Origin: Burkholderia sp. WP9
Lineage (GTDB): Bacteria; Pseudomonadota; Gammaproteobacteria; Burkholderiales; Burkholderiaceae
Length of the DNA stretch: 64,000 bases
NCBI RefSeq assembly: GCF_900104795.1
Contig: NZ_FNTG01000003.1
Location: 1 to 64,000 of the forward strand
Direction of reading: 5' to 3'
In this document: piece after piece, positions 4,831 to 42,246 of the stretch
How the letters are laid out: each line of letters begins with the position of its first letter
Position numbering within the stretch: the first letter of the stretch is position 1
Translations under genes and position numbers: made by a program
Notes under the pieces: model-generated
Seen by the model: the letters and a program-made list of their open reading frames with translations, nothing else
Database searches by the model: none
Told to the model about the DNA's origin: nothing

Positions 4831-5047
4831 GAGTCGACTCGCATGCTTGCACAACAACTTACGGCCGCCAGAGTTCAGGCGGCCACCTGCATTGAAAGCG
4901 GCGCGGGCGGCTACGCCGGCCAGCTCGCGCCCCGATCGGAGCCGCCACAGTTTAATCTGAAGCGGCCACTGACACTTTTCCATCCCGCTCCGGACGCGGC
5001 CGATCCCGATACACTGAATCGTGACGCGCGCCGGAGCGTGACCAGCC

Positions 5048-8000
5048 TTACAGCGCCAGCTGGCTGGTCTGGTCCGTCGACATCGCAATGACCTGGGCCG
5101 GTTGCAGCGAATGCACCTGGGCCGTCGTCATCGCCGCCACCTGATCCGTCGTCAACGCCTTGATCTGGTCGGTGGTAAGCGAAGCGATTTGCTGGGTCTT
5201 CATCGCGGCAATCGACTGCGTGGTCAGCGCGACAACCTGGGCCGTCGTCATCGCAACGACCTCGGTCGTCGTCATCGCGGCCACCTGGCCCGTGCTCAGC
5301 GCATGGACCTGGTCGGTCGTCAGGCCGTTCTTCACCTGGTCGGTCGTCAGCGCCGCCACTTGCGCGTATGTCAGCGCAGCCGCTTGCGAAGTCGTCATGT
5401 TGCGCAGCTGGGCCGTCGTCAGCGCTGAGATCTGCGAGCCCTTCATCGCCGAGATGTCGCCGGTCGCAAGCGCGCTCGCCTGATCCGTCGTCAGCGCCGC
5501 CACGTCCGCTGTGGTCAGCGCCGCCGCCTGGGCCGTCGTGAGCGCATGGACCTGGTCGGTCGTCAGGCCGTTCTTCACCTGGTCGGTCGTCAGCGCGGCA
5601 ATTTGAGCCGTGGTCAGCGTCCCCGCCTGGGTGGCGGAGAGATGGCTCAGCTGATCGGTCGTCAGCGCCTGGATCTGAGTGGACTTGAGAGCCCCGAAGG
5701 CGCCCGACGTCAGCGAGTTGACCTGGTCGGTCGTGAGCGACGCGACCTGATCGGTCGTCAGCGCCGAAACCTGTGCCGACGTCAGCGCGTGGACCTGATC
5801 GGTGGTCATGCTGCTGACCTGATCAGTCGTCAGCGCCGTGATCTGGCTGGTCTTGAGCGCCGCCACGTCGGCCGTGCTCAGAGCCGAGGCCTGATCGGTT
5901 GTGAGCGCCGCGACGGCGGCCGTCGACAGCGCACCCGCCTGGCTCACGCTGAACGCTTTGATCTGCGTAGTCGTGAAGCCATTTTGGACCTGATCGGTCG
6001 TGAACGCCGCCACTTGCGTGTAGGTCAGCACAGCTGCCTGCGCCGTCGTCAGATTGAGCAACTGGCTGGTCGTCATGTGCGCGACCTGTGCCGTCGTCAA
6101 CCCGCCGATGGACGACGCGGCGATTGCGCTCGACTGGTCCGTCGAGAGGCCGGCCACGTCCGCGGTCGTGAGTGCCGCGACTTGTGTCGAACTCAGCGTC
6201 TTGACCTGGTCGGTCGTCAGACCGTTATCGACCTGATCGGTCGTGAGCGCGCCGATCTGCGCCGTGGTCAGCGCACGGATCTGGCTGGTCGAAAGGTTGC
6301 TCAGCTGGCCCGTGGTCAGCGCGGTGATCTGTGCCGTCTTGAGCGCCGCGACCGCTGCCGCCGTTAGCGCGTTGAGCTGGTCCGTCGTAAGTTTGCTCAC
6401 CTGATCGGTCGTCAGCGCGGCGGTCTGGGTCGTCGTGAGCGCATGAGCCTGGTCGGTCGTCAGCGCGACCAGCTGGCCCGTCGTCAGCGCGGCAACCTGC
6501 TGCGTCTTGAGGCCCGCAACCGCCGTCGTCGTGAGCGCGTTGAGCTGGTCGGTACCCAGCACCGCAACGTCGGTCGTCGTGAGCGCGCTGGCCTGCGCCG
6601 CCGTCAGCGCATGGGCCTGGTCGGTCGTCAGGCCGCTCTTGACCTGGTCACTCGTCAGCGCCGCCACCTGGGTGGACGTGAGCGCGTGCGTCTGCGTCGT
6701 CGTCAGCGCGTTCAGCTGGCCCGTCGTCAGCGCGGCAACCTGCGTCGGCTTGAGCGCCGCAACCGCTGCCGTCGTCAGCGCGTTGAGCTGGTCGGTACCC
6801 AGCACCGCAACGTCGGTCGTCGTGAGCGCACTGGCCTGCGCCGCCGTCAGCGCATGGGCCTGGTCGGTCGTCAGGCCGCTCTTGACCTGGTCACTCGTCA
6901 GCGCCGCCACCTGGGTGGACGTGAGCGCGTGCGTCTGCGTAGTCGTCAGCGCGTTCAGCTGGCCCGTCGTCAGCGCGGCAACCTGCGTCGGCTTGAGCGC
7001 CGCGACCGCTGCCGTCGTCAGCGCGTTGAGCTGGTCCGTCGTGAGTTTGCTCACCTGATCGGTCGTCAGCGCGGCAGCCTGGGCCGTCGTGAGCGCATGA
7101 GCCTGGTCGGTCGTCAGCGCGACCAGTTGGCCCGTCGTCAGCGCGGCAACCTGCGTCGGCTTGAGACCCGCAATGTCAGCCGTGGAGAGCGCATCCAGCT
7201 GGCCGGTTGTCAGCGCCGAGATGTCACCGGTCGTCAGCGCACCGGCCTGCCCGGCCGTGAGCGCGTGGACCTGATCGGTCGTGAGGCCGTTCTGGACCTG
7301 ATCGGTCGTGAGCGCGCCGATCTGCGCCGTGGTCAGCGCACGGATCTGGTTGGTCGAAAGGTTGCTCAGCTGGCCCGTGGTCAGCGCGGTGATCTGTGCC
7401 GTCTTGAGCGCCGCGACCGCTGCCGTCGTCAGCGCGTTGAGCTGGTCCGTCGTGAGTTTGCTCACCTGATCGGTCGTCAGCGCGGTGGCCTGGGTCGTCG
7501 TGAGCGCATGAGCCTGGTCGGTCGTCAGCGCGACCAGTTGGCCCGTCGTCAGCGCGGCAACCTGCGTCGGCTTGAGACCCGCAACCGCCGTCGTCGTGAG
7601 CGCGTCGAGCTGGTCGGTCGACAGCGCGGCAACGTCAGCCGTCGTGAGCGCGCCGGCCTGCGCCGCCGTGAATGCGTGCACCTGGTCGGTCGTCAGGCCG
7701 CTCTTGATCTGGTCACTCGTCAGCGCCGCCACCTGGGTGGACGTGAGCGCGTGCGTCTGCGTCGTCGTCAGCGCGTTCAGCTGGCCCGTCGTCAGCGCGG
7801 CAACCTGCGTCGGCTTGAGCGCCGCAACCGCTGCCGTCGTGAGCGCGTTGAGCTGGTCCGTCGTGAGTTTGCTCACCTGATCGGTCGTCAGCGCGGCGGC
7901 CTGGGTCGTCGTGAGCGCATGAGCCTGGTCGGTCGTCAGCGCGACCAGCTGGCCCGTCGTCAGCGCGGCGACCTGCTGCGTCTTGAGACCCGCAACCGCC

Positions 8001-9364
8001 GCCGTCGTGAGCGCGTCGAGCTGGTCGGTCGACAGCGCGGTAACGTCAGCCGTCGTGAGCGCGCCGGCCTGCGCCGCTGTGAATGCGTGCACCTGGTCGG
8101 TCGTCAGGCCGCTCTTGATCTGGTCACTCGTCAGCGCCGCCACCTGGGCGGACGTGAAAGCCTGCGTCTGCGTCGTCGACAGCGCGTTCAGCTGGCCCGT
8201 CGTCAGCGCGGCAACCTGCGTCGGCTTGAGCGCCGCAACCGCTGCCGTCGTGAGCGCGTTGAGCTGGTCGGTACCCAGCACCGCAACGTCGGTCGTCGTG
8301 AGCGCGCTGGCCTGCGCCGCCGTCAGCGCATGGGCCTGGTCGGTCGTCAGGCCGCTCTTGACCTGGTCACTCGTCAGCGCCGCCACCTGGGTGGACGTGA
8401 GCGCGTGCGTCTGCGTAGTCGTCAGCGCGTTCAGCTGGCCCGTCGTCAGCGCGGCAACCTGCGTCGGCTTGAGCGCCGCAACCGCTGCCGTCGTCAGCGC
8501 GTTGAGCTGGTCGGTACCCAGCACCGCAACGTCGGTCGTCGTGAGCGCACTGGCCTGCGCCGCCGTCAGCGCATGGGCCTGGTCGGTCGTCAGGCCGCTC
8601 TTGACCTGGTCACTCGTCAGCGCCGCCACCTGGGTGGACGTGAGCGCGTGCGTCTGCGTAGTCGTCAGCGCGTTCAGCTGGCCCGTCGTCAGCGCGGCAA
8701 CCTGCGTCGGCTTGAGCGCCGCGACCGCTGCCGTCGTCAGCGCGTTGAGCTGGTCCGTCGTGAGTTTGCTCACCTGATCGGTCGTCAGCGCGGCAGCCTG
8801 GGCCGTCGTGAGCGCATGAGCCTGGTCGGTCGTCAGCGCGACCAGTTGGCCCGTCGTCAGCGCGGCAACCTGCGTCGGCTTGAGACCCGCAATGTCAGCC
8901 GTGGAGAGCGCATCCAGCTGGCCGGTTGTCAGCGCCGAGATGTCACCGGTCGTCAGCGCACCGGCCTGCCCGGCCGTGAGCGCGTGGACCTGATCGGTCG
9001 TGAGGCCGTTCTGGACCTGATCGGTCGTGAGCGCGCCGATCTGCGCCGTGGTCAGCGCACGGATCTGGTTGGTCGAAAGGTTGCTCAGCTGGCCCGTCGT
9101 CAGCGCGGTGATCTGTGCCGTCTTGAGCGCCGCAATGTCCGTGACGCTGAGTGCGCCGATTTGCTCGGAAGTCAGGGCGGCGATGCCTGCGCTGCTAAGG
9201 GAAACCACAGCCGAGGTAGTGAGCGCCCCAATCGCGTCCGTCGTCAGCGCCTCGACTTGATCCGTACTCAGCGCGCTAAGGTCCGCCGACGTCAACGCCC
9301 GAGCTTGTGTGGTCGTCAAGGCAGCGATCTGCGCCGTAATCATCCCCGCTACGATCGAAGTCAT
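5048..9364 (-). CDS. Giant octapeptide-repeat protein (ALTTxQVx units)
   Basis: This 1438-residue protein is built almost entirely from an eight-residue unit, consensus A-L-T-T-D-Q-V-x, in roughly 175 copies. Occasional nine-residue units (N/S-G-L-T-T-D-Q-V/A-x) break the phase, and some units read ALKPTQVA. Leu at position 2 and Ile/Val/Leu at position 7 are nearly invariant. The T-T-x-Q step resembles a helix N-cap box, so a superhelix of short helices is possible, but a beta-solenoid is not excluded. There is no signal peptide, membrane segment or cysteine. The start ATG 9364 follows AGGATGAAG. A sigma-28-like promoter lies 112 bp upstream. I do not recognise a named family. A fibre, scaffold or flagellum-linked surface protein is a guess from context. 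The opposite strand is also open in a long Arg-rich frame, which I take as an artefact of codon bias. Confidence 0.82.
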   Translation of the reverse strand: MTSIVAGMITAQIAALTTTQARALTSADLSALSTDQVEALTTDAIGALTTSAVVSLSSAGIAALTSEQIGALSVTDIAALKTAQITALTTGQLSNLSTNQIRALTTAQIGALTTDQVQNGLTTDQVHALTAGQAGALTTGDISALTTGQLDALSTADIAGLKPTQVAALTTGQLVALTTDQAHALTTAQAAALTTDQVSKLTTDQLNALTTAAVAALKPTQVAALTTGQLNALTTTQTHALTSTQVAALTSDQVKSGLTTDQAHALTAAQASALTTTDVAVLGTDQLNALTTAAVAALKPTQVAALTTGQLNALTTTQTHALTSTQVAALTSDQVKSGLTTDQAHALTAAQASALTTTDVAVLGTDQLNALTTAAVAALKPTQVAALTTGQLNALSTTQTQAFTSAQVAALTSDQIKSGLTTDQVHAFTAAQAGALTTADVTALSTDQLDALTTAAVAGLKTQQVAALTTGQLVALTTDQAHALTTTQAAALTTDQVSKLTTDQLNALTTAAVAALKPTQVAALTTGQLNALTTTQTHALTSTQVAALTSDQIKSGLTTDQVHAFTAAQAGALTTADVAALSTDQLDALTTTAVAGLKPTQVAALTTGQLVALTTDQAHALTTTQATALTTDQVSKLTTDQLNALTTAAVAALKTAQITALTTGQLSNLSTNQIRALTTAQIGALTTDQVQNGLTTDQVHALTAGQAGALTTGDISALTTGQLDALSTADIAGLKPTQVAALTTGQLVALTTDQAHALTTAQAAALTTDQVSKLTTDQLNALTTAAVAALKPTQVAALTTGQLNALTTTQTHALTSTQVAALTSDQVKSGLTTDQAHALTAAQASALTTTDVAVLGTDQLNALTTAAVAALKPTQVAALTTGQLNALTTTQTHALTSTQVAALTSDQVKSGLTTDQAHALTAAQASALTTTDVAVLGTDQLNALTTTAVAGLKTQQVAALTTGQLVALTTDQAHALTTTQTAALTTDQVSKLTTDQLNALTAAAVAALKTAQITALTTGQLSNLSTSQIRALTTAQIGALTTDQVDNGLTTDQVKTLSSTQVAALTTADVAGLSTDQSSAIAASSIGGLTTAQVAHMTTSQLLNLTTAQAAVLTYTQVAAFTTDQVQNGFTTTQIKAFSVSQAGALSTAAVAALTTDQASALSTADVAALKTSQITALTTDQVSSMTTDQVHALTSAQVSALTTDQVASLTTDQVNSLTSGAFGALKSTQIQALTTDQLSHLSATQAGTLTTAQIAALTTDQVKNGLTTDQVHALTTAQAAALTTADVAALTTDQASALATGDISAMKGSQISALTTAQLRNMTTSQAAALTYAQVAALTTDQVKNGLTTDQVHALSTGQVAAMTTTEVVAMTTAQVVALTTQSIAAMKTQQIASLTTDQIKALTTDQVAAMTTAQVHSLQPAQVIAMSTDQTSQLAL
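5100..9130. repeat. Nested tandem repeats: 24 bp, 243 bp, 1719 bp
   Basis: At DNA level the octapeptide gene has three nested periods. The base unit is 24 bp. A 243-bp unit recurs, for example from 6542 to 6785 and from 8261 to 8504. A near-identical block of several hundred base pairs recurs at a distance of 1719 bp (7251 to 8970, 7382 to 9101, 6542 to 8261). All keep the reading frame, so the gene has grown by in-frame tandem duplication and probably varies in length by recombination. Confidence 0.85.
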
Positions 9365-11020: not shown

Positions 11021-11320
11021 TCAGTATCTGGCGACGCGGTGATACTCGCGAGTGGCTGCGGCGCAGTTCATCGCTTTGAAGTGTCCGCCCTCTAATTCAG
11101 ACTTGCCCCTGGTCGCAAGCGCAAGCACCGCTTCGTCGATTTTCTGAACGCGACGCACGAGCTTTAGGGTCTCGTCATCGACGTCGCCTGTGAGCGACAT
11201 TAGCAACGGCGAGCGCCGCTCGCTCAGCCGGGCGGCCTCAGGCCAGTCTGCCTGTTGGGCCGCATGTTCGATCGCCTGGGATAAGGCAAGAAGACTTTCG
11301 GCCAGTTCGCGCGATGTCAT
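11021..11320 (-). CDS. fliT: FliT-like flagellar chaperone
   Basis: A 99-residue, mostly helical protein (MTSRELAESLLALSQAIEHAAQQADW, a second helix with ARLSERRSPLLMSL, and a third around VRRVQKIDEAVLALA). FliT is the export chaperone of the filament cap FliD and in enterics also binds FlhD/FlhC. Length and the LxxRxxLL region fit the family. It lies 18 bp downstream of fliD on the same strand, the usual fliC-fliD-fliT order. The last residues (about 80-99) look atypical and may be altered by the IS debris just downstream. Confidence 0.75.
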   Translation of the reverse strand: MTSRELAESLLALSQAIEHAAQQADWPEAARLSERRSPLLMSLTGDVDDETLKLVRRVQKIDEAVLALATRGKSELEGGHFKAMNCAAATREYHRVARY

Positions 11321-11338: not shown

Positions 11339-13168
11339 TCAGTTCTTACCGTTGGCCAGTGCACCCGCGCTGTTCGTGCCGCCGAACAGCTGCGTCAGGT
11401 ACTGCGAGTTATTGTTCATCGTCGCCATCAACGTGTTGAGCGCCGTGAACTGCGCCTGATACTGGCTCGTCAGCTGAGCGGTGTAGGCCGTGAGAGTGGT
11501 TTGCTGCGAGGCGATGCTCGTGAGGTCGGCGTTGATGGTAGTCGTTTCGGTATCCATGATACCGCCAGTCCGCGTGAGGTTCGTGATGCTATTGTTCAAC
11601 TGGGCGGCAATACCGTTCGTCGAGTTGAACAGCGAGGCAACGGTCGCCGGCGAGCTTGTCAGCGCAGTGTTGAGCGCGTTGCTGTCTGTGGCCATCGAGC
11701 CATCTGCATTTAACGTGATGCCGATCGAGGCGAGCGTGAGCGACCTATTGCCGCTCTTGACGCCGCCACTCACGATGCTAGCAAGCGAGTTCTGGATCGT
11801 GTTGGCCATCGAGTCGCCCAGCAGCGGGCCGGCCTGCGACCCTTGCGCCTGCGTGCCGTCGAACGACGTGAGCGCGCCCATCGTCGTGACCAGCGTGTTG
11901 TACAGGCTGACGAAGTTGGTGATCGCCGTTGCCTCGGAGGTCGTGTCGGACGCAATGGTCAGCGTCTGTGCGTTGCCCGTCGTGACACCCGATGACGATG
12001 TGGTGCCGAGCGCGGCGGCGGTCAGGTTCAGCGTGACGCCTGCGATTGCTGTCGTCGACGTGTTGGCGGAACTGCTGACCGGCGTACCGTCTACGGTGAA
12101 GAGCGCATCTTGCGCCGCCTGCGTCTGGTTCCACGCGACGCCACCCGACGAAGTGACTGGCGAGGCCGTCATGCTCCCAAGACTCGACAGCCCGTCCCCT
12201 GCCTGCGCGCCACTCACGGACACGCTAACGGCGTTCGAACCGCCGTTGGACGAACTCAGCACAAGCTCCTGTGAACCGTTCGCCGTGGTGACAATATTCG
12301 CGGTCACGCCTGGATTATCGCTCGCCTTGTTGATCGCCGATGCGATGTCGCTTAGCTTGTCATTCGGTGAGCTGATGGCGACGCTCATCGGCTTGCCGCC
12401 GATCGACACAGTTATCGTACCGGCACCTAGCTCCTGGCTCGCGCTGAACGTGCCTGACGTGAGCGACGGCGACGACTTGACACCGAGACTCGACAGCCCG
12501 GCATCGCTTTGCACGTTGCTGGTGGACACGCTGATGGTGTTCGATGCACCCGTGGATGTCGAGCGCATCACGAGGTGCGCGCCGTCCGTGCCGGTGACGA
12601 TGGTGGCCGAAACACCCGGATTATTGGTCGCGGAGTTGATCGCCGCGGCAATGCCACTCAACGTATTGTTCGTCGAGTCGATGTTGACGCTCATCGACTG
12701 GCTGCCGAGCGAGACGCTCAGTGTCCCGGTGCCGAGCACGGTGGTCGCGTTGAAGGCGCCCGAGGAAATTGTTTGTGCCTGCGCGATCTGCTGGACCGAG
12801 ATGGCATAGCTGCCCGCGACAGCGCCCACGCCGGCGGTCGCGCTCAGGCCCGAGCCGCTTGTCGTCGCCGTGTACGACGCCAGCGTGGTGCCGTTCGCGA
12901 GGTTGGTCAAGCTGGCCTGCAATGCCGACATGGCCGCCTTGAGCGTACCGATCGCGGAGATCTTGGTGTTGTCCGCGGTTGTCTGCGCAGTCAATGCCGA
13001 CAGCTGGCCGGCCGTCTTCGAGTTGACCAGCGCGGTGACCAACGAAGAGACATCGAGTGACGAATTGCCGGTGGAACCGCTGATGACCGACTGTGCGGCT
13101 TGCTGAAGCGCGGCATTGTTGCTCGCGGTTGCGGCGGCAGCAGCTGATGCTGTCGAGACGGTTGACAT
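11339..13168 (-). CDS. fliD: Flagellar filament capping protein FliD
   Basis: FliD (HAP2) caps the growing filament and folds incoming flagellin. The N-terminal helical region (residues 35-100; LDVSSLVTALVNSKTAGQLSAL) and the C-terminal coiled region (AQLTSQYQAQFTALNTLMATM, then LTQLFGG) are typical. At 609 residues it is longer than the usual 450-500. The extra length comes from a duplicated segment of about 90 residues: two copies of the pattern GAGT(L/I)(S/T)VS(L/I)G...AIN.A..NPGV.A.IV..., each ending GLSSLG, at about residues 140-230 and 240-330. The start follows GAGGGAG. It is preceded by fliC and probably co-transcribed or driven by a promoter in the 147-bp gap; I see no clear sigma-28 box there. 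Confidence 0.92.
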   Translation of the reverse strand: MSTVSTASAAAAATASNNAALQQAAQSVISGSTGNSSLDVSSLVTALVNSKTAGQLSALTAQTTADNTKISAIGTLKAAMSALQASLTNLANGTTLASYTATTSGSGLSATAGVGAVAGSYAISVQQIAQAQTISSGAFNATTVLGTGTLSVSLGSQSMSVNIDSTNNTLSGIAAAINSATNNPGVSATIVTGTDGAHLVMRSTSTGASNTISVSTSNVQSDAGLSSLGVKSSPSLTSGTFSASQELGAGTITVSIGGKPMSVAISSPNDKLSDIASAINKASDNPGVTANIVTTANGSQELVLSSSNGGSNAVSVSVSGAQAGDGLSSLGSMTASPVTSSGGVAWNQTQAAQDALFTVDGTPVSSSANTSTTAIAGVTLNLTAAALGTTSSSGVTTGNAQTLTIASDTTSEATAITNFVSLYNTLVTTMGALTSFDGTQAQGSQAGPLLGDSMANTIQNSLASIVSGGVKSGNRSLTLASIGITLNADGSMATDSNALNTALTSSPATVASLFNSTNGIAAQLNNSITNLTRTGGIMDTETTTINADLTSIASQQTTLTAYTAQLTSQYQAQFTALNTLMATMNNNSQYLTQLFGGTNSAGALANGKN

Positions 13169-13315: not shown

Positions 13316-14725
13316 TTATTGTAGGAGCTTCAGAACCTGCTGCGGCAGCGAGTTAGCTTGTGCCAGCACCGAGATGCCAGCCTGTTGCAACACTTGCGCC
13401 TTGCTCAGATTCGCCGTTTCCTGCGCGAAGTTGGCGTCCGTGATGTTCGATTGTGCTTGCGACAGGTCGGTCGACTGGGCCTGCTGGGTCGTGGCGATCG
13501 CCGTGAATCGGTTTTGTGCTGCACCCAGACTTGCCTGGATGTTGTTCATGGTCGTCAGCGCGTTGTCGATCGACTCCATCGCCTGGGTCGCGCCGTTCGT
13601 CGTGCTGACGTCGATGCTTGAGACGGCTTGCGTGTTGCCAGTGAAATTGGCGTTCAGGACCGTACCCGGCGTGGCGACAAAAGCCAGCGTCGATGGACTA
13701 CCGGCAGCAGCGGGCGCGGTGACTTTGAAGACAGCGTTAGCGACAGTGCTGGAAAGCGCAGTGCCGTTCTGATCAGAGAACTGGAAGCCACCGTTGCCAT
13801 CCGACTTCACCGTGATCGCGGTGATCGCGCTCGACGGCAGCGGGATCGTCGCAGTACCGGAGTTGTCGGTACCGGTAGAGTCAATGTCGAGACCACCGAT
13901 AGTGCCAAGGGTCGTGCCGGCGGCCAACGTCGTGTTGTTGTTGGTGCCGATCGAGGCCATGACCTTGGCCGGATCAAGGGTGCCGCCAGCCAGGGTCGAG
14001 GGAGGCGTAGTGGTGAGGTCGAACATGGCGGTGACGGCCGGAGCACCGACCGACTGATTGTTCTGGTCGGTGAACGTGTAGCCGCCTTTGCCGTCTGCCT
14101 GGATATTGACCTGCGTGATTTCATTGCCGGTGCTGGCGGCCGTCCATTGCGCGCCGTTGGAATCGACGGACACCGATAGCGTGCCGAGCGTTGCGCCGGC
14201 CTGTACCGCGCCGTTGCCGATCGAAGCCGCCGAAAGATTTTGTCCCAGATTCAGGCCGACCGTCTGGCCAACATTCGCACCGACCTGGAACGACACGCTG
14301 CCTGCCGAACCGTCCAGAATGTTCTTGCCGTTGTACTGCGTTTGCGATGCGATCCGGTTCACTTCGGCAATCTGCTGTGACACTTCCTGTTGCAGCGCTG
14401 CCCGGTTGTCATTCGTCAGACCGCCGCTCGACGCCTGCACTGCCAGCGTACGGATACGCTGCAGGCTCGATGTGATCTGTGCGAGGCCACTGTTGGCCGT
14501 CTGGATCATCGAGACGCCGTCGTTCGCGTTCGACACGCCCTGGTTCAGACCGTTGATCTGCGTTTGCATGCCGGTCGAGATGGCCAGGCCTGCTGCATCG
14601 TCCGCCGCGCTGTTGATGCGCTTGCCCGACGACAGGCGGGTGATGGCTTGCGAGAGGGCGCTTTGCGAGCCACTGAGGTTCTGCTGGGCAACCAGCGAGT
14701 TGATATTGCTATTGATTCCGAGCAT
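13316..14725 (-). CDS. fliC: Flagellin FliC
   Basis: Flagellin of 469 residues. The conserved D0/D1 N terminus (MLGINSNINSLVAQQNLS, LSSGKRINSAADDAAGLAI) and C terminus (ETANLSKAQVLQQAGISVLAQAN, ending LKLLQ) are complete. The middle is Ser/Thr/Gly-rich and holds two related modules (ITQVNIQADGKGGYTFTDQN and ITAITVKSDGNGGFQFSDQN), a duplicated D2-like unit. The start is ATG 14725, where family members begin, behind AGGAG; an upstream in-frame Met was rejected. It has a canonical sigma-28 promoter at 14811-14837. The leader resembles the 5' end of the neighbouring omega-RNA, which makes this gene, or a close paralogue elsewhere, the likely target of the adjacent IscB-derived protein. Confidence 0.96.
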   Translation of the reverse strand: MLGINSNINSLVAQQNLSGSQSALSQAITRLSSGKRINSAADDAAGLAISTGMQTQINGLNQGVSNANDGVSMIQTANSGLAQITSSLQRIRTLAVQASSGGLTNDNRAALQQEVSQQIAEVNRIASQTQYNGKNILDGSAGSVSFQVGANVGQTVGLNLGQNLSAASIGNGAVQAGATLGTLSVSVDSNGAQWTAASTGNEITQVNIQADGKGGYTFTDQNNQSVGAPAVTAMFDLTTTPPSTLAGGTLDPAKVMASIGTNNNTTLAAGTTLGTIGGLDIDSTGTDNSGTATIPLPSSAITAITVKSDGNGGFQFSDQNGTALSSTVANAVFKVTAPAAAGSPSTLAFVATPGTVLNANFTGNTQAVSSIDVSTTNGATQAMESIDNALTTMNNIQASLGAAQNRFTAIATTQQAQSTDLSQAQSNITDANFAQETANLSKAQVLQQAGISVLAQANSLPQQVLKLLQ

Positions 14726-14787
14726 GGAAAATCTCCTGTATAGGCGTTGAGCCTTACATGCCACATTGGCATCGGCGGAAGCATTTC

Positions 14788-14803
14788 ACTGCTAGCCACC
14801 TCA
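14788..14803 (-). promoter_or_regulatory. fliC leader segment matching the omega-RNA guide
   Basis: On the minus strand this reads TGAGGTGGCTAGCAGT, beginning about where a sigma-28 transcript would start. The putative omega-RNA guide at 16509-16524 reads TGAGGCGGCCAGCAGT: 14 of 16 identical, both differences T to C. The next bases here are GAAATG. An RNA-protein complex bound here would sit at +1 to +16 and block fliC transcription (inference). Confidence 0.6.
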
Positions 14804-14810
14804 CTAGGAG

Positions 14811-14837
14811 ATGTCGGCCTCAGATCACGAAACTTTA
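14811..14837 (-). promoter_or_regulatory. Sigma-28 (FliA) promoter of fliC
   Basis: Minus strand: TAAAGTTT (14837-14830), an 11-base spacer, GCCGACAT (14818-14811). The consensus is TAAAGTTT-N11-GCCGATAA; 8/8 and 6/8 positions match. The leader to the ATG is about 80 bases. Confidence 0.88.
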
Positions 14838-14960
14838 GATTTCATCGGGTAAATTAAAATCAAAAACCGGAAACAGACCGGTATTCGGTTCATCACGCCA
14901 CCTGTCAAGGTAGCTTGCCAAGGTTAACGGTAGGCCGACACCGCCGTCAGCAATAACCCG

Positions 14961-16247
14961 TCACATCGAATAACTGTATCCATCAGCCCGCTGCAGAACG
15001 ACGCAGTATCGATGGTGGATCCCAGTAACCGGTCCGTCTGGCTTGTGCACGTCAAAATAGCCACGCGAGCGGACCGCCACTCGCCCCGTATGGATGCCGG
15101 CTTTCTTGCCGGTCGGGACAGTTGCACGAACGCGATCACCGGTCTGAACGTTATGGATGCGCTTGTTGCGCATCAGATAGGCACGGGGGAAGCCATATGC
15201 ATTCACAAGTGTTCGCTGGTATCGGCCTCGGCCCGTACACTTTATCTTGATGACGGGAATGCGCCAGCCGACGACAGCCGTGACTGCGCCCACACATACC
15301 GCATCCAGAGCCGGCGACTTGGGAAGAGCAAGGCGTGTACGGTTCCATTTCGTGCGTCCGCCGCTGGACAGATCGACAGGGAGCCCAGTCGTTGCGAGGA
15401 ACTGTGCGATGGCCGAACGCGTGCCGTCGACCGCCGCGCGATCTCTCTGTGGCGCGTTTGTCCAGTTTCGCAGCCGCACGAGCCGCGCCCGATCGGTGAC
15501 GAACTCGCCAATGTCACGCCCAGCTCGCCGCGCGATGCAGGAAGTACAGGCCAGGATCAAACCGGATATGTGCCTCGCCGGCTCGCCTGCCGTACGAAGA
15601 TCGATCGGGTCAATCTGCAGATGCTGGCGGTCGGAATCGCAATAGACGCATTGACGTCCCCACTTATCCAGGAGATACGCGCGAATCTCGTGGGCCGCGA
15701 TTTCAGCATGCTCCTCATTGTCGGGGGCGCTTTCGTCACTTTCTGCCGCCGCGAGGTCGTAACGCACCAGTTCGTTAGCAAGTCCGCTTACTGGTGCCCA
15801 ACGGATAAAACGCGTCACCCAGGATTTTGTCGTGTCGACCCGATGTCTCAGGCTGGGAGGGAGCCAGCCACTGGTTCGTGCGGGATTGGCATAGTGCGGA
15901 GCCCGGTACCGCAGGTTAGCGCTGCGCCTGCGTCGGCGGAAGTTGCTGCGGGCAGACAGGCCCTCGCTGATCTGACGCCCCCGATGTATCAGTTCAAACA
16001 GGTTAAGAACGGCGGTCGACTCGCCATCCTCGCGCACCAGTGCGAGTCCGGTTATCTTGCTCCCCGGTTCAATTTTAATGCGCACCGGCTGCAACCTACT
16101 TTCCTCGAGGAGTCGGTCTGTAAGGCGAATGACAAACGGCATCACGCGATGAACGCGTGCGCGCCGACGCTCGAGCATCAGCCGAGCCCGTTTCTCCGAA
16201 CACGGCATTAATGGTCTACCGCGTCGATCCAGTACGAATACTGCCAT
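14961..16247 (-). CDS. iscB: IscB homologue with degenerate RuvC and HNH sites
   Basis: A 428-residue IscB-type protein. It has the PLMP domain (FVLDRRGRPLMPC), RuvC-I (residues 57-71), Arg-rich bridge helix (about 101-117), RuvC-II (NELVRYD, E159), an HNH domain with two CxxC knuckles (C200/C203, C234/C237), RuvC-III (LDAVCVG, D315), and the C-terminal omega-RNA/TAM-binding part. Active IscBs are RNA-guided DNA nucleases. Here RuvC-I reads IEPGSK rather than IDPGSK (D to E at 60). The HNH reads IDPIDL where the family has a DHI/EHI-V-P motif (catalytic His to Pro at 214), its last Asn/His is Ile238, and the RuvC-III His is Pro312. The fold looks kept and catalysis lost. No Y1 TnpA is nearby, so it appears domesticated. 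It lies between fliC and its own omega-RNA. RNA-guided repression of flagellin is the best hypothesis. Confidence 0.9.
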   Translation of the reverse strand: MAVFVLDRRGRPLMPCSEKRARLMLERRRARVHRVMPFVIRLTDRLLEESRLQPVRIKIEPGSKITGLALVREDGESTAVLNLFELIHRGRQISEGLSARSNFRRRRRSANLRYRAPHYANPARTSGWLPPSLRHRVDTTKSWVTRFIRWAPVSGLANELVRYDLAAAESDESAPDNEEHAEIAAHEIRAYLLDKWGRQCVYCDSDRQHLQIDPIDLRTAGEPARHISGLILACTSCIARRAGRDIGEFVTDRARLVRLRNWTNAPQRDRAAVDGTRSAIAQFLATTGLPVDLSSGGRTKWNRTRLALPKSPALDAVCVGAVTAVVGWRIPVIKIKCTGRGRYQRTLVNAYGFPRAYLMRNKRIHNVQTGDRVRATVPTGKKAGIHTGRVAVRSRGYFDVHKPDGPVTGIHHRYCVVLQRADGYSYSM

Positions 16248-16250
16248 GTG

Positions 16251-16525
16251 TTCTCAATTGTCCCTTACGGAACCTTGTTACGGGAGCCACCTGGGCTCCG
16301 CTCCCCTCGCCAAAGTTGTACAGCAGCGTTACCCTGCGACCCGTTTCGTGCTTGCTCGAAGCGTGTCTACTGCCGCAGGTTCCAGGGTCCGCAACTGAGG
16401 AAGCATCGCGGAGTGGGTCTTGAACTTCTGCACAACGTAGCCCCTTGCGGGGCTCTGGCTGGTCAACCTCGGGCTTTTGCAAGCCTCGGCCTTAGGCCGG
16501 AGCGATTGACTGCTGGCCGCCTCAT
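16251..16525 (-). ncRNA. Putative omega-RNA (HEARO-type) of the IscB homologue
   Basis: IscB omega-RNAs lie directly upstream of iscB with the guide at the RNA 5' end. This 275-base non-coding stretch runs from a sigma-28-like promoter to the iscB ATG and is rich in hairpins: CCGGCC-TAA-GGCCG (16500-16487), AGCCCC-GCAA-GGGGCT (16454-16439), and a CCGTAAC/GTTCCG stem just before the ATG. The guide should be the 5' part; TGAGGCGGCCAGCAGT at 16524-16509 matches the fliC leader 14/16. The exact ends are estimates. Confidence 0.72.
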
Positions 16526-16531
16526 TCTAGG

Positions 16532-16558
16532 ATTTCGGCAAAAACAGAGCGAACTTGA
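16532..16558 (-). promoter_or_regulatory. Sigma-28-like promoter of the omega-RNA/iscB unit
   Basis: Minus strand: TCAAGTTC (16558-16551), 11-base spacer, GCCGAAAT (16539-16532). It matches the sigma-28 consensus in spacing, 6/8 in the -35 and 6/8 in the -10. It aligns without gaps to the fliC promoter at a constant offset of 1721 bp, suggesting a captured fliC promoter copy. Confidence 0.68.
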
Positions 16559-16665
16559 GGGTCGTGTCCAAGATAATATTCTCAGCGGGTCGTCTCTGCT
16601 GTTTGCACCAGATTTGACAAAATACCTGATCCCGCTCGACGGGCTCGTGCGACCTGATCCAGACG

Positions 16666-16694
16666 AAAAAAAACCGACCGGGTTAGGGGTCGGC
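16666..16694 (-). terminator. Intrinsic terminator, minus strand
   Basis: Minus strand: CCGACC (16693-16688), 8-base loop, GGTCGG (16679-16674), then eight T (16673-16666). It sits upstream of the omega-RNA promoter and would insulate it from leftward transcription. I could not assign a gene upstream of it. Confidence 0.7.
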
Positions 16695-16958
16695 GAAGGA
16701 TTCTGGCCATTCCGAGGGCCATGCCAGAACCTGAGAGGGCCACATTATGCCGCAGACTGGCCGGCGAAGGCTATCCGCATCCAGTTCGCAGGGGATCACC
16801 ATGATCTGGCAACTAGCGGCGCACGCATGCCGGGAGCAAGCCCGTCCAGATCTCGTCCGCGATGCTACGCTGGTCCCATTCCCGCGTGGGAAGCACCGCA
16901 ATGGACAGTAGCTGGCCGGTCATGGGTGGCTCTACAACCCGGTGCCCGGGTAGCAGGG
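16695..16958. other. Unassigned sequence between terminator and promoter
   Basis: About 260 bp with open frames on both strands but none with a recognisable family or Shine-Dalgarno. It may be a decayed gene end whose terminator survives at 16666-16694. Confidence 0.35.
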
Positions 16959-17075: not shown

Positions 17076-18320
17076 TTGAATCAACAACGATCGTCATGGT
17101 CCCGCACCGCGGCCCCTGGCGAAGTCATCTACTCTGAAGGTTACGCAGGCGATGCCGCTATCTTCGTGATCGCAGACGGCAAAGTCGAAATCTCCACCTA
17201 TTGCGACGAAAAGAAGGTCGTCCTCGCCACCTTGGGCAAAGGCGAATTTTTCGGCGAAGCAGCCCTGCTGTCTTCCGAACCCCGAGCACACAGCGCGAAA
17301 GCACTGAGCTTCTGTCAGTTGACCGTTATCTCGGCCGACGTCGTGGAAGAGGAACTTGAGCGAGTGTCGCCGCTGCTGCGCCATATCGTGCGTACCATGA
17401 TCCGCCGGGCCAAAAAGAAGGACGACATCCTTGCCACTTACACGCACGCTGATTTTCTGCCGGGAGTCGTTTCATACGCACACGTTCTGGCGCTGATGGC
17501 GGGCAGCGAGAGCGCGGATCGGCCTGACGCACGTATACGCCGCGCGCCAGGCGAAGAGTTCTCGGTGCCTTTGCCCGAAGTCATCAGGAAGTGCCATGCC
17601 ATTGCCGGCCATTCCCGGCCGCATGTGATGGCGATGCTCAAGCGCATGGAGAAACTCAACCTGGTCACGCTCGAACCTGGCCGCTCCGACCGCTTGAGCA
17701 GCATGTCAACGCGATATTCAGCGCAAGACGGCGCGACCAGCCGGCAGCTCGTCACTTTCGATTCGATCCGGATCACAGATCGAGCCCAACAGGTGGCAGA
17801 CCAGGAACTGGACATCTCCATTAGCAGCGAACTCGAGCTGATCGAACTGCCTGACCTGGAAGCGCTGATCGGCGTCGATAAGAAGCTGATTCTGAACAAG
17901 CTGTCCCACGCGGAAATCGCGGAAGACATTTTTGCATTCCGCAAGACTAAAGTCCTGAATTACGTCGAGCAAAAAGGCATTGCGTATTTTTCACGACGCA
18001 ATTCACGTGACGCTAGCGATCTGAAATCGCTTGACGATCTGGAGTTCGTCGACCAGCGGACCCTGTTCGAAGCTGTGAATGCTTTCGACACCTATGACCT
18101 CGCCAAACTGCTCTCCGCGGTGACCGGCCAGCCTGTTGGTGAGCGCCTGCTGTCGGTGATGACCGAGGCGAGAAAGAAAGAGGTGTCGTGGGTCATGCGG
18201 CGGGACATCAGGATCGATCCGCTCGAGATTGCCGGGATCGAGGAGCGATTGCTCGATACGGTGCGGGCCATCAAAGCTCCTGCGGGCAACACAGCATCAT
18301 TTTCGAGTCTGGGTGCCTGA
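17076..18320 (+). CDS. cNMP-binding / winged-HTH / FliG-like protein
   Basis: A 414-residue cytoplasmic protein of three parts. Residues 10-115 are a cyclic-nucleotide-binding beta-roll (APGEVIYSEG, GEFFGEAALLSSEPRAHSAKA; the FGEAAL-R motif is the phosphate-binding cassette). Residues 150-210 look like a Crp-type winged helix (PLPEVIRKCHAIAGHSRPHV, MEKLNLVTLEPG). Residues 320-400 resemble the FliG C-terminal torque domain (LEFVDQRTLFEAVNAFDTYDLAKLL, ERLLSVMTEARKKE, IDPLEIAGIEERLLDTVRAI). It starts at TTG 17076 behind a G-rich site and precedes motA by 69 bp. It could be a transcription factor that borrowed a FliG fold, or a rotor-associated c-di-GMP/cAMP-responsive clutch. Its place before motAB favours a motor role; neither is proven. 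Confidence 0.78.
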   Translation: MNQQRSSWSRTAAPGEVIYSEGYAGDAAIFVIADGKVEISTYCDEKKVVLATLGKGEFFGEAALLSSEPRAHSAKALSFCQLTVISADVVEEELERVSPLLRHIVRTMIRRAKKKDDILATYTHADFLPGVVSYAHVLALMAGSESADRPDARIRRAPGEEFSVPLPEVIRKCHAIAGHSRPHVMAMLKRMEKLNLVTLEPGRSDRLSSMSTRYSAQDGATSRQLVTFDSIRITDRAQQVADQELDISISSELELIELPDLEALIGVDKKLILNKLSHAEIAEDIFAFRKTKVLNYVEQKGIAYFSRRNSRDASDLKSLDDLEFVDQRTLFEAVNAFDTYDLAKLLSAVTGQPVGERLLSVMTEARKKEVSWVMRRDIRIDPLEIAGIEERLLDTVRAIKAPAGNTASFSSLGA

Positions 18321-18389
18321 TACCCGGTTCGCGGACACCCGCTTATTCCGGTTTGGGCTGGCGGTACGCGCGGCCGTTGGAGAGGATAT

Positions 18390-19154
18390 ATGGATCTTTT
18401 GACCCTGTTCGGCGCATTGTTCGGTGGGACGGCCGTCGTCGCCGGATTTCTGCTCGAGGGTGGGCAATTCAGTACCCTCTTTCAGATGGAGGCGTTCGTC
18501 GTCGTGTTTGGGGGCACCCTCGGCGCGGTGATGATTCAGAACACCTGGGCGAGGTTCTATGACGGCGTCAAGCAACTGCGGCTCGCCTTTGTGAAAGCGC
18601 GCCAGGTCGACCGCGAAAGTCTGGCGGTTCTGCTCGAATGGGGCGATCAGGCGAAGCTGAACGGCATGCTGGCATTCGAGTCGATGGAAGTCGGCGGCAT
18701 CAACCCGTTTGCCAGAAGAGGGCTGGAATTGCTGGCCAACGGCGTATCTACCCCGGTGCTGGAAGACGCCTTGCAAAGAGAGCTGGATGCCTACGAGCGC
18801 AATCACATGGCGGGCGCGCGAATCTGGCAGCAGGCGGGCGGGTATGCGCCGACCTTCGGCATCCTCGGTGCCGTACTCGGCCTGATTCAGGTCACCGGTC
18901 ATCTGCTCGACCCCGCGCAACTCGGCGCCGGCATCGCGGTTGCGTTCGTCGCCACGCTTTACGGCCTCGCTTTGGCGAACCTGGTCTTTCTGCCGTTGTA
19001 CGGGAAGATCAGGGCGCAAGTGGATAGCGAATTGCGGTTCCGGCGTTTATATCTCGACGGCCTGCTGGCGATATCGCGTAAGGAATCGCCCCATACGATC
19101 GAAACCCGGCTGGCGGGCGACGTGCGCGAAAGATCGGCTGAGTTGCTGGGATAG
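18390..19154 (+). CDS. motA: Flagellar stator protein MotA
   Basis: A 254-residue MotA/PomA-family protein, one half of the ion-conducting stator. Four membrane segments are visible (about 4-20, 32-50, 148-170 and 180-203). The cytoplasmic loop between the second and third includes AFESMEVGGINPFARRGLELLANG. The TFGILGAVLGLIQ and ALYGLALANLVFLPL segments are the conserved pore helices. Start ATG 18390 follows GAGAGGATAT. It forms an operon with the upstream cNMP/FliG protein and with motB 58 bp downstream. It resembles the MotC type more than E. coli MotA. Confidence 0.92.
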   Translation: MDLLTLFGALFGGTAVVAGFLLEGGQFSTLFQMEAFVVVFGGTLGAVMIQNTWARFYDGVKQLRLAFVKARQVDRESLAVLLEWGDQAKLNGMLAFESMEVGGINPFARRGLELLANGVSTPVLEDALQRELDAYERNHMAGARIWQQAGGYAPTFGILGAVLGLIQVTGHLLDPAQLGAGIAVAFVATLYGLALANLVFLPLYGKIRAQVDSELRFRRLYLDGLLAISRKESPHTIETRLAGDVRERSAELLG

Positions 19155-19212
19155 GCTGCGTCAGGCTCGCGCTGGCATACCATTCAATCGCTTCCAAAGC
19201 AGACTTTAGTCG

Positions 19213-19924
19213 ATGAACACCTCCTCTTCCAGCAGGCGCGGCGCCTCGGACGGGACTGCCTACGAAGACGACGTCGAGGCGCAGTCCGGGCGATGGCTGA
19301 TCTCCTACTCGGACCTCATCACCACGCTGATGGTGCTGTTCCTCACGCTATACGCGTTGCAACTTGCCCGCTACAAAGAGCTGGAAATGAAAACTTTCCA
19401 GCAACGCATTGCCAGGGAAAGAACGAAGGACGCCTTCGCCCAGGCCTGATGCGGCAAGGCAGCAGCTACTCGCTCTTCTGGAACCGCTTCGCGACACCGG
19501 TCAGATTACACTTGCGAGCGCCAGCCACGGCATCGAGATCGCAATCAACGCGAAGGTTCTGTTTTACTCCGGCGACGCACGCTTGCTGCCGGAAGCTGTT
19601 GGGGTGTTGAATCAGGTTGCGGTGGTGCTGCGCGATCATTCCGCAAACAACATTCTCGTAGAGGGACACACTGACAGTTCGCCGATATCGACGGCGAAAT
19701 ACGAATCCAACTGGGAGCTGTCGTCGGCACGGGCGGGATCTGTAGTTCGATTCTTCGCCGACAAAGGAATCGAAGCCCGCAGGATGGCCGCAATTGGCCG
19801 GGCTGATAATTTCCCCTTGATTCTCGGAGATACTGCGTCCGCGCGTGCTGCGAATCGCCGCGTGACCATCCTCGTGGAGGATCAAGCCATGGAGGGCAGC
19901 AGCGCGTCGTATGGACCCGGGTGA
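19213..19924 (+). pseudogene. motB: MotB-type stator protein, frameshifted
   Basis: MotB pairs with MotA and anchors the stator to peptidoglycan. The frame from 19213 encodes the N-terminal tail and the single membrane helix (SYSDLITTLMVLFLTLYALQ, with the ion-binding Asp) and stops at 19447. The +1 frame carries straight on with DAARQQLLALLEPLRDTGQ and an OmpA-type domain (VEGHTDSSPIST, NWELSSARAGSVVRFF, SARAANRRVTILVE) to 19922. One extra T at the GCCTGATG junction explains it. It may be a true loss of function, an assembly error or a programmed shift; no slippery heptamer is evident. Confidence 0.85.
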
Positions 19925-23020: not shown

Positions 23021-23053
23021 CGGAGGTCCGGGCGTTGCTGGTTCGGACCTCCG
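23021..23053 (+). terminator. Hairpin after flp
   Basis: CGGAGGTCCG (23021-23030) pairs with CGGACCTCCG (23044-23053) with a 13-base loop. There is no T-run, so it probably stabilises flp mRNA or attenuates read-through, a common way to over-express the pilin. Confidence 0.6.
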
Positions 23054-23085
23054 CTGGTCTTCCCTCATTTCATGCCACCAACACT

Positions 23086-23595
23086 GTGCACCTATTGTCT
23101 CTCGCCATCCGTCTGGTCGTGCTGAGCGCGCTGCTCTGGCTCGCGGTCATCGACGTTCATTCGCGGCGCTTGCCGACCAGGGTCGTGCTGGCGGTCGGCG
23201 CGCTGTTTTTCGCGGACGCGGCAACCCTTCGGCTGACCCTCGATCAGGTGATGGTCCATCTAGGGTTGGCACTAGGCGTCTTCCTCGTCTGTGCTGCGCT
23301 CTTCGCCGCAAAGATGCTTGGCGGAGGCGACGCGAAGCTTGCCGCAGTCATTTTCCTGTGGGTCGGCCTGCGTCTCGCGCTCCCGGCCTTGACGCTGATT
23401 TCAATGATCGGGACGGTTGTGTCCCTGATCAGTCTTGCCACGCGAAACATGAAACCGGAGCAGCGTTCGTGGCCGTTGCGGGCACTGGCAATGTTTTCGG
23501 GAGCGCGCGGTGTTCCGTACGGCGTAGCGCTTGCCTTTGGCGGCGGCCTGGTGATTGTGCTGCCTGCCGTGCTGCCCCTGATTCTGAAGCGATAG
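23086..23595 (+). CDS. tadV: Tad prepilin peptidase (TadV/CpaA)
   Basis: An inner-membrane aspartyl protease of the A24 family that cleaves Flp and pseudopilin leaders. The two catalytic Asp are visible: AVIDVHSRRLP and the GGGDAKLAA (GxGD) motif. About six hydrophobic segments fill the rest, and there is no methyltransferase domain, as usual for Tad peptidases. I chose GTG 23086, past the post-flp hairpin; a TTG at 23035 with a GGAGG site inside the hairpin would add 17 residues. Confidence 0.85.
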   Translation: MHLLSLAIRLVVLSALLWLAVIDVHSRRLPTRVVLAVGALFFADAATLRLTLDQVMVHLGLALGVFLVCAALFAAKMLGGGDAKLAAVIFLWVGLRLALPALTLISMIGTVVSLISLATRNMKPEQRSWPLRALAMFSGARGVPYGVALAFGGGLVIVLPAVLPLILKR

Positions 23596-23607
23596 GACGG
23601 CGTCTCC

Positions 23608-24555
23608 ATGTCAAACATCATTAAATTCGCCGTGCTTATCGTCGGTGCGCTCATGATCGCGCTGATCGTTCGCGTGGTCGTCGCGAGCGGTTCGCATCGG
23701 TCGAAGCCCATCGTCGATACGCAGAAGGTGCTGGTCAGCGCGGCCGACCTGCCGCAGGGTCTTCTGCTGCGCGACGAGGATCTCGGCTGGAAGCCAGTGC
23801 CGGTCGCGGAAGTGCCGCCGGGCGCTATCGTGTCCGGTGCGCCGGACGCCCTGGAACTGAAGGGTGCGTTGCTGCGCCATGCGGCAGCAAGCGGCACCGT
23901 TCTGGTGGCCGAAGACGTGATCCTGCCGGGCGCCCCCGGTTTTCTCGCGGCGACGCTCAAACCTGAAATGCGCGCCGTGTCGGTGGCCGTCGACGACGTG
24001 TCCGGTAACGCTGGTCTGATCCAGCCGGGCGACTACGTCGATCTGCTGCTGACGCAGCAGATGGATCGCCGCACCGATTTACCTGACCTTGCGGTGTCGA
24101 GCGAAACCGTCGTCGAGCACGTCCGGGTACTGGCGGTCGGGTCGGAAATCAAGCGGCCGAAGAACAGCGACACGCCGGAGGTAGTCGGCAACCGTGCCCG
24201 CACCGTCACGCTGGAAGTCACGCCACGGATGGGGGAGGTCGTGTCCGTCGCGGCGCGGCTCGGCAGTCTGTCGCTCGCGTTGCGCAGTTTCGCGACGGCT
24301 TCGCGCGACCCCGCGGTTCCGATGGCTGCTTCCGCGGCGCAGCCTGCGCCGGTTTGGGCCGGCGACATCTCGCGCGCCGTGCGCGATCTGCCGCGCTCGC
24401 GCGCGGTCCAGGTCGCCGCCGCAGCGCCCGCACCCGTCGCGCCGCGGCCGGTCACGATCTACAGAGGCTCCGAGAAATCCGACGCGACGACGAGCGCGGC
24501 CGCGGGAGGCGACAGCGCGTCACCGCCGCTGCCTTCCATGCCCGCGTCGCGCTGA
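23608..24555 (+). CDS. cpaB: Tad pilus assembly protein CpaB/RcpC
   Basis: A 315-residue periplasmic protein with one N-terminal membrane anchor (IIKFAVLIVGALMIALIVRVV), an SAF/antifreeze-like domain (VLVSAADLPQGLLLRDEDL) and the RcpC core (AVSVAVDDVSGNAGLIQPGDYVDLLLT). It supports secretin assembly or stability. The C-terminal 80 residues are Ala/Pro-rich and low complexity. It lies 12 bp after the peptidase and before the secretin, the usual order. Confidence 0.9.
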   Translation: MSNIIKFAVLIVGALMIALIVRVVVASGSHRSKPIVDTQKVLVSAADLPQGLLLRDEDLGWKPVPVAEVPPGAIVSGAPDALELKGALLRHAAASGTVLVAEDVILPGAPGFLAATLKPEMRAVSVAVDDVSGNAGLIQPGDYVDLLLTQQMDRRTDLPDLAVSSETVVEHVRVLAVGSEIKRPKNSDTPEVVGNRARTVTLEVTPRMGEVVSVAARLGSLSLALRSFATASRDPAVPMAASAAQPAPVWAGDISRAVRDLPRSRAVQVAAAAPAPVAPRPVTIYRGSEKSDATTSAAAGGDSASPPLPSMPASR

Positions 24556-24607
24556 TGCCGTTCAAACCGCTGGACCAGATCCATTCGCCAGGATAGAGAG
24601 ACGTCAG

Positions 24608-26113: not shown

Positions 26114-26135
26114 GCCGCTTATCGAGTCCGACATC

Positions 26136-26510
26136 ATGAAAACCGTCCGTCTTCTCACGCTTTTTCTCGCCTGCGCTGGTGCGGCCAGTGTCAGCGGATG
26201 CTTCAAGCCGCCGCGCAGCATGCCCGATCAGTCGGCGATAGGCTTCGACGGCCGCTCCGCGTTGCCACCCGATTGCGCGAGCCTTTCGCGCCCTTCGGTG
26301 TTGACGGATGCGGGCTGGCACCGCCCGAGCATGGAGTGGGGGTGTGCGACCTACACCAATCTCGCGGCGCAGGTCGCACATCCGCAGGACCTCGTCAAGC
26401 CACAGCCGCTCGGTCCAGCCGACGCTGCCGTCGCGGCGAGCGCGGTGCATCGCTACGAAACCGGCCATGTGATTCCGCTCGACACCGGCACGTCGCGCGA
26501 TTCCAAGTGA
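26136..26510 (+). CDS. cpaD: CpaD-type lipoprotein of the Tad system
   Basis: A 124-residue lipoprotein with a signal peptide and lipobox SVSGC (Cys at about 22). The remainder (PDCASLSRPSVL, WGCATYTNLAAQVAHPQDLVKP) matches CpaD-like pilotins that help place the secretin. Two further Cys (PPDC, WGC) may form a disulfide. It is 22 bp downstream of cpaC. Confidence 0.82.
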   Translation: MKTVRLLTLFLACAGAASVSGCFKPPRSMPDQSAIGFDGRSALPPDCASLSRPSVLTDAGWHRPSMEWGCATYTNLAAQVAHPQDLVKPQPLGPADAAVAASAVHRYETGHVIPLDTGTSRDSK

Positions 26511-26537
26511 CGCAAGCAACACTCACGGAAGAACAGC

Positions 26538-42244: not shown

Positions 42245-42246
42245 GG

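Follow-up and report, generated by a model that had tools for sequence, protein, structure and literature searches.

An IscB-family gene (iscB) adjoins a flagellin gene (fliC) in the first 64,000 nucleotides of contig NZ_FNTG01000003.1 of Burkholderia sp. WP9 (hereafter the window), which raises the question of what an RNA-guided nuclease of transposon origin does beside a flagellar gene. The best reading of the locus, to which a probability of roughly three in four is given, is that the IscB protein is nuclease-dead and uses its guide RNA to repress the chromosomal flagellin of the host, as an IscB-derived equivalent of the repressor TldR, while the flagellin encoded beside it on a probable plasmid takes over. 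An IscB-derived repression module parallel to TldR had been proposed in an initial annotation of the window. That proposal is strengthened here by clade-wide loss of catalytic residues, by a further locus that has this cassette and by constraint on both protein and RNA, and it is amended in its implied target, which was the adjacent fliC.

Organisation of the Locus

The contig that holds the window has 188,748 bases and belongs to a genome of 9.02 Mb and seven contigs, read here as that of a Paraburkholderia bacterium. The contig is probably a plasmid, because family matches to type IV secretion and conjugation components lie on it (T2SSE-type ATPase, TrbI, VirB8, TrbL/VirB6, CagE/TrbE/VirB and a coupling-protein domain). 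The module is read on the minus strand in the order sigma-28-like promoter, guide, HEARO omega-RNA, iscB, second sigma-28-like promoter, fliC, fliD and fliT, and the iscB-fliC-fliD-fliT cassette is also present on plasmid pII of Paraburkholderia dioscoreae. The features are as follows.

16532-16560, minus strand: putative sigma-28-like promoter of the omega-RNA/iscB transcript, CCTCAAGTT-N12-GCCGAAAT
16511-16526, minus strand: 16-nt guide AATGAGGCGGCCAGCA, its 3′ boundary taken from the left ends of related elements, its 5′ end and length presumed
16295-16510, minus strand: omega-RNA scaffold (HEARO, RF02033), 101 bits (gathering score 83)
14961-16247, minus strand: iscB, intact frame of 428 aa (Pfam RRXRR, E 3.4e-53; NCBIfam guided_IscB, 302 bits, cut-off 175)
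14811-14837, minus strand: putative sigma-28-like promoter of the plasmid fliC, TAAAGTTT-N11-GCCGACAT
14790-14805, minus strand: guide-like site in the leader of the plasmid's own fliC, 13/16 match followed by GTGA
13316-14725, minus strand: plasmid flagellin fliC, 469 aa, ATG at 14725 (Flagellin_N, FliC_D2, Flagellin_C)
11339-13168, minus strand: fliD, filament cap (FliD_C and FliD_N), in the same order on P. dioscoreae pII
11021-11320, minus strand: fliT, flagellar chaperone (FliT, 32.3 bits, cut-off 29.5), annotated 3′ of fliD on P. dioscoreae pII too

The same-strand adjacency of iscB to the 5′ side of fliC and the omega-RNA 5′ of iscB, both named in the initial annotation, are borne out by these matches.

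Loss of Catalytic Residues in IscB

Seven positions were scored (RuvC-I D; RuvC-II E; HNH H, N and N; RuvC-III H and D), which are taken as catalytic by membership of the family. The window protein has the IscB architecture, with RRXRR/PLMP, RuvC, an HNH region and a C-terminal region binding the target-adjacent motif (TAM); its HNH is degraded and gives no HNH Pfam match. Five of the seven residues are replaced (D60E in RuvC; H214P, N229G and N238I in HNH; H312P in RuvC-III) and E187 and D315 are retained, so that the catalytic string reads EEPGIPD, and EEPGIQD in P. dioscoreae. Intact RuvC and HNH active sites, the mark of an IscB RNA-guided nuclease, are not found in the window protein, which is predicted to be nuclease-dead; the loss of cutting is a prediction because E187 and D315 remain.

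Most relatives carry the string DEHNNHD, which was read in 144 of the 163 high-scoring segment pairs covering all seven positions (174 in all, with duplicates from different collections included). Seven of the remainder read EEPGIPD or EEPGIQD and are repeat records of two places, and 12 differ at one or two positions. In an alignment of 46 proteins (A3), four to six of the seven residues are missing from the window protein and six database proteins (three of them counting one gap), and the other 39 comprise 36 with DEHNNHD and three with one or two changes. The window protein, these six and the P. dioscoreae protein form a clade with tree support of 100/100, and all eight rows lack at least four of the seven residues, a gap being counted in three. 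Of the six database proteins, P0004 belongs to Paraburkholderia sp. RL17-383-BIF-A (285-kb contig), and P0006 and P0007 are encoded on contigs of 38 kb and 117 kb. Outside this dead clade, IscB relatives at four loci (L243, L239, L140 and L123) show one or two active-site changes, such as A or G in place of the RuvC-I D, or P for the HNH H together with S for the RuvC-III H, and are possible further inactive or nickase forms.

Omega-RNA, Guide and Element Ends

At the level of sequence, a HEARO omega-RNA lies directly 5′ of iscB with the guide 5′ of its scaffold. The left ends of related elements, compared in pairs with different flanks, and the HEARO model place the start of the scaffold at GTCAA, and the 16-nt guide is therefore 16511-16526; the length of 16 nt is an assumption, the value named in the initial annotation. 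The constant offset of 1721 described there holds for the guide core (16511-16524) against the own-fliC site and for the promoter boxes. Its count of 14/16 in TGAGGYGGCYAGCAGT is right, but the last two of these bases fall outside the guide, since the scaffold starts at GTCAA.

Both promoters, whose sigma-28 identity we presume from the consensus, align ungapped to flagellin promoters of the genus. The stretch 5′ of the guide core aligns ungapped to the chromosomal fliC promoter (20/36), with the -35 element CCTCAAGTT and GCCG identical.

Among the pairs listed, related elements lead into ATGA at their right ends. When right ends were read by a pattern that imposed TGA and left only the first base free, 88 of the 93 read among 159 loci were ATGA, three CTGA and two TTGA. 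The ATGA at the element ends fits the NTGA TAM reported for an IsrB (PMC9581776).

Targets of the Guide

The chromosomal fliC leader of the window host, ATTGAGGCGGCCAGCA followed by ATGA, matches the guide AATGAGGCGGCCAGCA at 15 of 16 positions, with an exact match over the 14 beside the motif, which are the 3′ end of the guide (16511-16524). The plasmid's own fliC, AGTGAGGTGGCTAGCA followed by GTGA, matches at 13/16, with two C-A mismatches inside the 14-nt core, at the fifth and ninth bases counted from the motif, and both plasmids share these two. In P. dioscoreae the guide matches the chromosomal fliC at 14/16 and the plasmid fliC at 12/16 (cores 14/14 and 12/14); the 5′ guide bases differ slightly between the plasmids, and the first base of the 16 is already different. 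On this mismatch pattern the adjacent plasmid fliC, the target implied in the initial annotation, was rejected as the main one, and the chromosomal leader fits better.

Exact copies of the 14-mer occur at three places in the 9.02-Mb genome (the guide locus, the chromosomal fliC leader and one coding site without the motif) and at two in the P. dioscoreae genome (the guide locus and the chromosomal fliC leader), whereas the reversed 14-mer occurs in neither. A whole-genome search for the guide followed by RTGA, with up to three mismatches, returned six places; besides the guide's own locus the best was the chromosomal fliC leader, with one mismatch, against three for the plasmid fliC.

The match is confined to the two plasmids among the loci compared. 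Of 113 distinct guides read by pattern at 159 iscB loci, the two plasmid guides match the leader core at 14/14 and the other 111 at 8/14 or fewer. The initial annotation had pointed to related genomes as the place to look for iscB beside fliC, and among 165 iscB locus records (mostly with 1.5 to 8 kb of flank) a flagellin adjoins iscB in two, which are exactly the two dead loci. Both dead loci with known DNA have a guide matching the host fliC leader beside the motif, with the core at 14/14.

The targeted leader is widespread in the genus. The motif TGAGGCGGCCAGCARTGA, which comprises the leader motif and RTGA, occurs in 82/144 genus genomes and its reversed control in 0/144, and the first 30 places (L076-L105) all begin 79-87 nt before the ATG of a flagellin-like protein start. 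TGAGGCGGCCAGCARTGA sits directly 3′ of the flagellin promoter. For a plasmid with such a guide, a leader that it matches would be present in many hosts.

Constraint on IscB and Its Omega-RNA

Comparison of iscB between the window and P. dioscoreae pII gave a ratio of non-synonymous (dN) to synonymous (dS) substitution rates of 0.135 by NG86 (dN 0.033, dS 0.245) and 0.193 by YN00 (dN 0.038, dS 0.197). Along the gene, dN/dS for this one plasmid pair reaches its minimum in the C-terminal part and its maximum around HNH. The omega-RNA is identical in 210/217 alignment columns, the guide core in 14/14, the promoter and leader of the plasmid fliC (14726-14837) in 111/112 and the omega-RNA promoter region (16525-16560) in 32/36; the corresponding figures for other non-coding DNA are 61/83 upstream of the omega-RNA promoter and 92/124 between iscB and the fliC promoter. 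The HEARO scores of the two dead loci, 101 and 102, fall inside the 92-112 range of four intact relatives, and the frames are full-length in all eight rows of the dead clade, though identity within it goes down to about 60%.

Domains were compared between seven dead and 38 intact proteins, with P0042 left out and domain limits set by hand. Dead-active identity was 0.43 in HNH and 0.55 in RuvC-II, against active-active identities of 0.64 and 0.90, while the PLMP-RuvC-I-bridge helix part (0.70 against 0.75) and WED/TI (0.65 against 0.71) were closer. By this measure the nuclease parts are decayed, and the guide- and TAM-binding parts much less so. Constraint and guide match together argue for function, as opposed to measuring it.

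Alternative Explanations

The locus could also be read as a decaying IscB transposon that once inserted in a flagellin leader, its guide match being a relic without present role. Related elements end before ATGA and have a variable 5′ flank as guide, so insertion would leave a fliC-matching guide, and the guide's first base has already changed between the two plasmids. This is nevertheless unlikely, given full-length proteins in a clade whose identity has fallen so far, dN/dS of 0.135-0.193 (one pair), an omega-RNA kept at 210/217 while its flanks stand at 61/83 and 92/124, and HEARO scores within the range of intact relatives.

Still less probable is an autoregulator, in which the module represses the adjacent plasmid fliC and the chromosomal fliC is secondary or spared. 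Proximity on the same strand, the 13/16 match and the GTGA beside it speak for this arrangement, but the two core mismatches are the same in both plasmids and the chromosomal site has none. Least probable of all is a protein that is still a nickase or weak nuclease and attacks the flagellin leader, or plasmids or strains carrying that leader. The protein retains E187 (RuvC-II) and D315 (RuvC-III), the D60E substitution is mild, and a case has been published in which an IscB with an active HNH but an inactivated RuvC accompanies an inactivated Cas12 (PMC10910872). However, all three HNH positions and two of the four RuvC positions are replaced in the window protein, and cutting of the chromosomal fliC leader is expected to be toxic, yet the site is intact in both hosts.

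Several observations weigh against repression of the chromosomal flagellin as the role of the module. Within the protein, the retained E187 and D315 are one, and the middling predicted structure (predicted local distance difference test, pLDDT, 69; predicted template modelling score, pTM, 0.51) is another; the ten best Foldseek matches all belong to IscB or IsrB complexes, though at query TM-scores of 0.24-0.36, and no conclusion is built on structure. The guide likely descends from a fliC leader, and by itself that descent could leave such a match as a relic. In the whole-genome search the reversed control also yielded two places at up to three mismatches, and an exact 16/16 guide match lies in a coding region (C2:2629369-2629384, in an open reading frame read as a nucleoside transporter), followed by GATA and not by the motif. 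A HEARO nuclease is reported to prefer 24-bp spacers (PMC9755519) and the IsrB guide-target duplex to span 20 nt (PMC9581776); when the guide is lengthened past 16 nt, its fit to chromosomal fliC becomes poorer, 17/20 over 20 nt (manual count). The plasmid's own fliC may be repressed as well, because it retains 12/14 core matches and GTGA, and TldR is reported to repress despite naturally occurring guide-target mismatches, with a seed of 6 nt (PMC13418256). In addition, DNA context comes from two dead loci, which are close relatives, with P0001-P0004, P0006 and P0007 unplaced; P. dioscoreae pII is typed as non-mobilizable; and transcription, binding and repression by the module are predictions.

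Proposed Mechanism and Origin

If the dead IscB is a repressor of chromosomal fliC, a FliA-dependent (sigma-28-like) promoter would transcribe the omega-RNA and iscB along with the flagellar genes, and a start near 16526 would set the 5′ end of the guide. The omega-RNA would assemble with dead IscB, and the resulting ribonucleoprotein would open an R-loop on the template strand, covering the bases of chromosomal fliC that are transcribed first, and would block initiation by sigma-28 polymerase with no cutting. The plasmid fliC is predicted to be spared, at least partly, by its two C-A core mismatches. The filament would then be made of plasmid flagellin, with the cap and chaperone also supplied from the plasmid. 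The flagellins involved differ in length: that of the plasmid has 469 aa and that of the chromosome 382 aa in the window host, with identity at 130 of the first 150 residues and 74 of the last 85, and in P. dioscoreae the lengths are 593 and 381 aa.

The module may have originated when an IscB element inserted in a fliC leader between CAGCA and ATGA, with the nuclease decaying later. An element inserting before ATGA would land where the guide ends in the fliC leader, so that one insertion would give guide and promoter together. The left end of the element is clear at the window locus, and the right end is only a weak ATGAAC relic (14888-14893), which is not kept in P. dioscoreae, so the insertion origin stays conjectural. 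The fuller account is judged probable on balance, with less assurance than repression itself. In this account, IscB and TnpB would have given rise separately to repressors, the former to interference resembling that of dead Cas9 (dCas9) and the latter to TldR; a single insertion in a flagellin leader would have provided promoter and guide, the nuclease would have died, and the plasmids would silence the resident flagellin through its genus-conserved leader and swap in their own flagellin, cap and chaperone.

Comparison With Known Systems

The closest parallel is TldR, which is encoded with a prophage flagellin, FliCP, in Enterobacter and for which repression of host fliC has been shown by experiment (PMC13418256). 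Both systems have a transposon-derived RNA-guided nuclease with a clade-wide dead active site, a guide against host fliC and an alternative flagellin beside it on a mobile element, and both lead to a swap of flagellar identity, shown for TldR and predicted for the IscB module. They differ in that TldR derives from TnpB, on the Cas12 side, and is carried on prophages, whereas the window protein is an IscB, on the Cas9 side, with RuvC and HNH. The IscB module furthermore has a HEARO omega-RNA with a 5′ guide and a 3′ motif, includes fliD and fliT, and resides on a plasmid in P. dioscoreae and on a probable plasmid in the window host, its repression being the predicted part. It would work like TldR yet is not TldR, as it descends from IscB.

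With the obligate mobile element-guided activity (OMEGA) nucleases of the IscB/HEARO type, the module shares the family match, a full HEARO RNA and the scaffold start GTCAA. It differs in lacking most catalytic residues, in its linkage to flagellar genes and in a guide that matches a conserved host leader, not an arbitrary flank.

The linear plasmid pBSSB1 of Salmonella Typhi carries fljB-fljA, described as encoding an additional flagellin together with a putative repressor of resident fliC (PMC1876496). As in the IscB module, a plasmid supplies both functions. We take FljA to be a protein repressor with no guide RNA. In engineered CRISPR (clustered regularly interspaced short palindromic repeats) interference, dCas9 at a promoter blocks transcription. 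The IscB module likewise would place a dead Cas9-lineage protein at a promoter, with an effect that is predicted, but it is natural, derived from IscB and equipped with a single built-in guide and no CRISPR array.

Surveys of Sequence Collections and Literature

Relatives turned up in three phage records, with a best identity of 39%. IMG/VR yielded 48 loci at 56% full-length identity or less (up to 76% for short fragments); the dead pattern was absent from every locus that spans the seven positions, and the exact guide-plus-scaffold pattern had 0 matches. The genus search found matches in 19/144 genomes, and among the fetched places covering the seven positions the dead pattern occurred in the window and P. 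dioscoreae only; the family search found matches in 31/398 genomes, part of whose places were fetched. The best identity in assembled genome contigs was 58%, among the best 80 of 539 confirmed loci. Among 56 plasmid records, one had 90-95% identity and 55 were below 60%, and the omega-RNA stretch had one full-length match in plasmids. A profile protein search ranked the six known dead proteins first and the intact ones after, among the 120 matches listed.

A description of IscB regulating flagella was not found in the literature covered (titles and abstract openings, with bioRxiv and most subscription papers outside coverage), nor, within it, a publication treating TldR and IscB together. A clade degraded in both RuvC and HNH and with a flagellin guide was likewise not found in the literature or sequence surveys made.

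Neighbouring Features

Directly upstream of the omega-RNA promoter lies a match to Rfam ncS54 (Burkholderia sRNA 54, 48 bits; 16667-16741, minus strand), similarly placed on P. dioscoreae pII (stretch L002, 1004-1078). The plus strand beside the module (17076-19924) encodes a protein with a cNMP-binding domain, one resembling MotA/ExbB and a MotB-like one with an OmpA domain, which may together be a stator set carried by the plasmid; no such genes are annotated within the 40-kb stretch of P. dioscoreae pII. The pII flagellin (NZ_LR699556.1) is annotated from 75618, a start roughly 0.8 kb into a 593-codon open frame whose translation opens with MLGINSN, and the annotation looks truncated.

Further along the window, a TPR/glycosyltransferase family 41 protein is encoded beside a 1438-aa ALTTAQ-repeat protein (3016-9364, minus strand), and the former could modify the repeat protein or flagellin. 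A Tad/Flp pilus-like cluster (23035-35026, plus strand) comprises a prepilin peptidase, a secretin, a T2SSE ATPase and a TadE/G-like protein. The type IV secretion/conjugation genes and the coupling-protein domain lie at 39181-48003 (minus strand) and 57136-58908 (plus strand), with 60129-61736 encoding an IS66 transposase. Matches to group II introns (D1-D4-2, gpII) occur at 1316-1929 (plus strand), and on P. dioscoreae pII two group-II-D1D4-7 matches lie upstream of the module (L002, 336-874).

Implications

P. dioscoreae Msb3, a plant-associated strain, carries the module, and hence the proposed repression is directly testable. A one-step origin is also offered for such regulators, in which insertion just 3′ of a promoter would equip a transposon with that promoter and, at the same time, with a guide against the promoter's gene family. 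If the reading is true, the Cas9 lineage, like the Cas12/TnpB lineage, has given rise to RNA-guided transcription factors, and the two would have converged on host flagellin as their target, on different kinds of mobile element.

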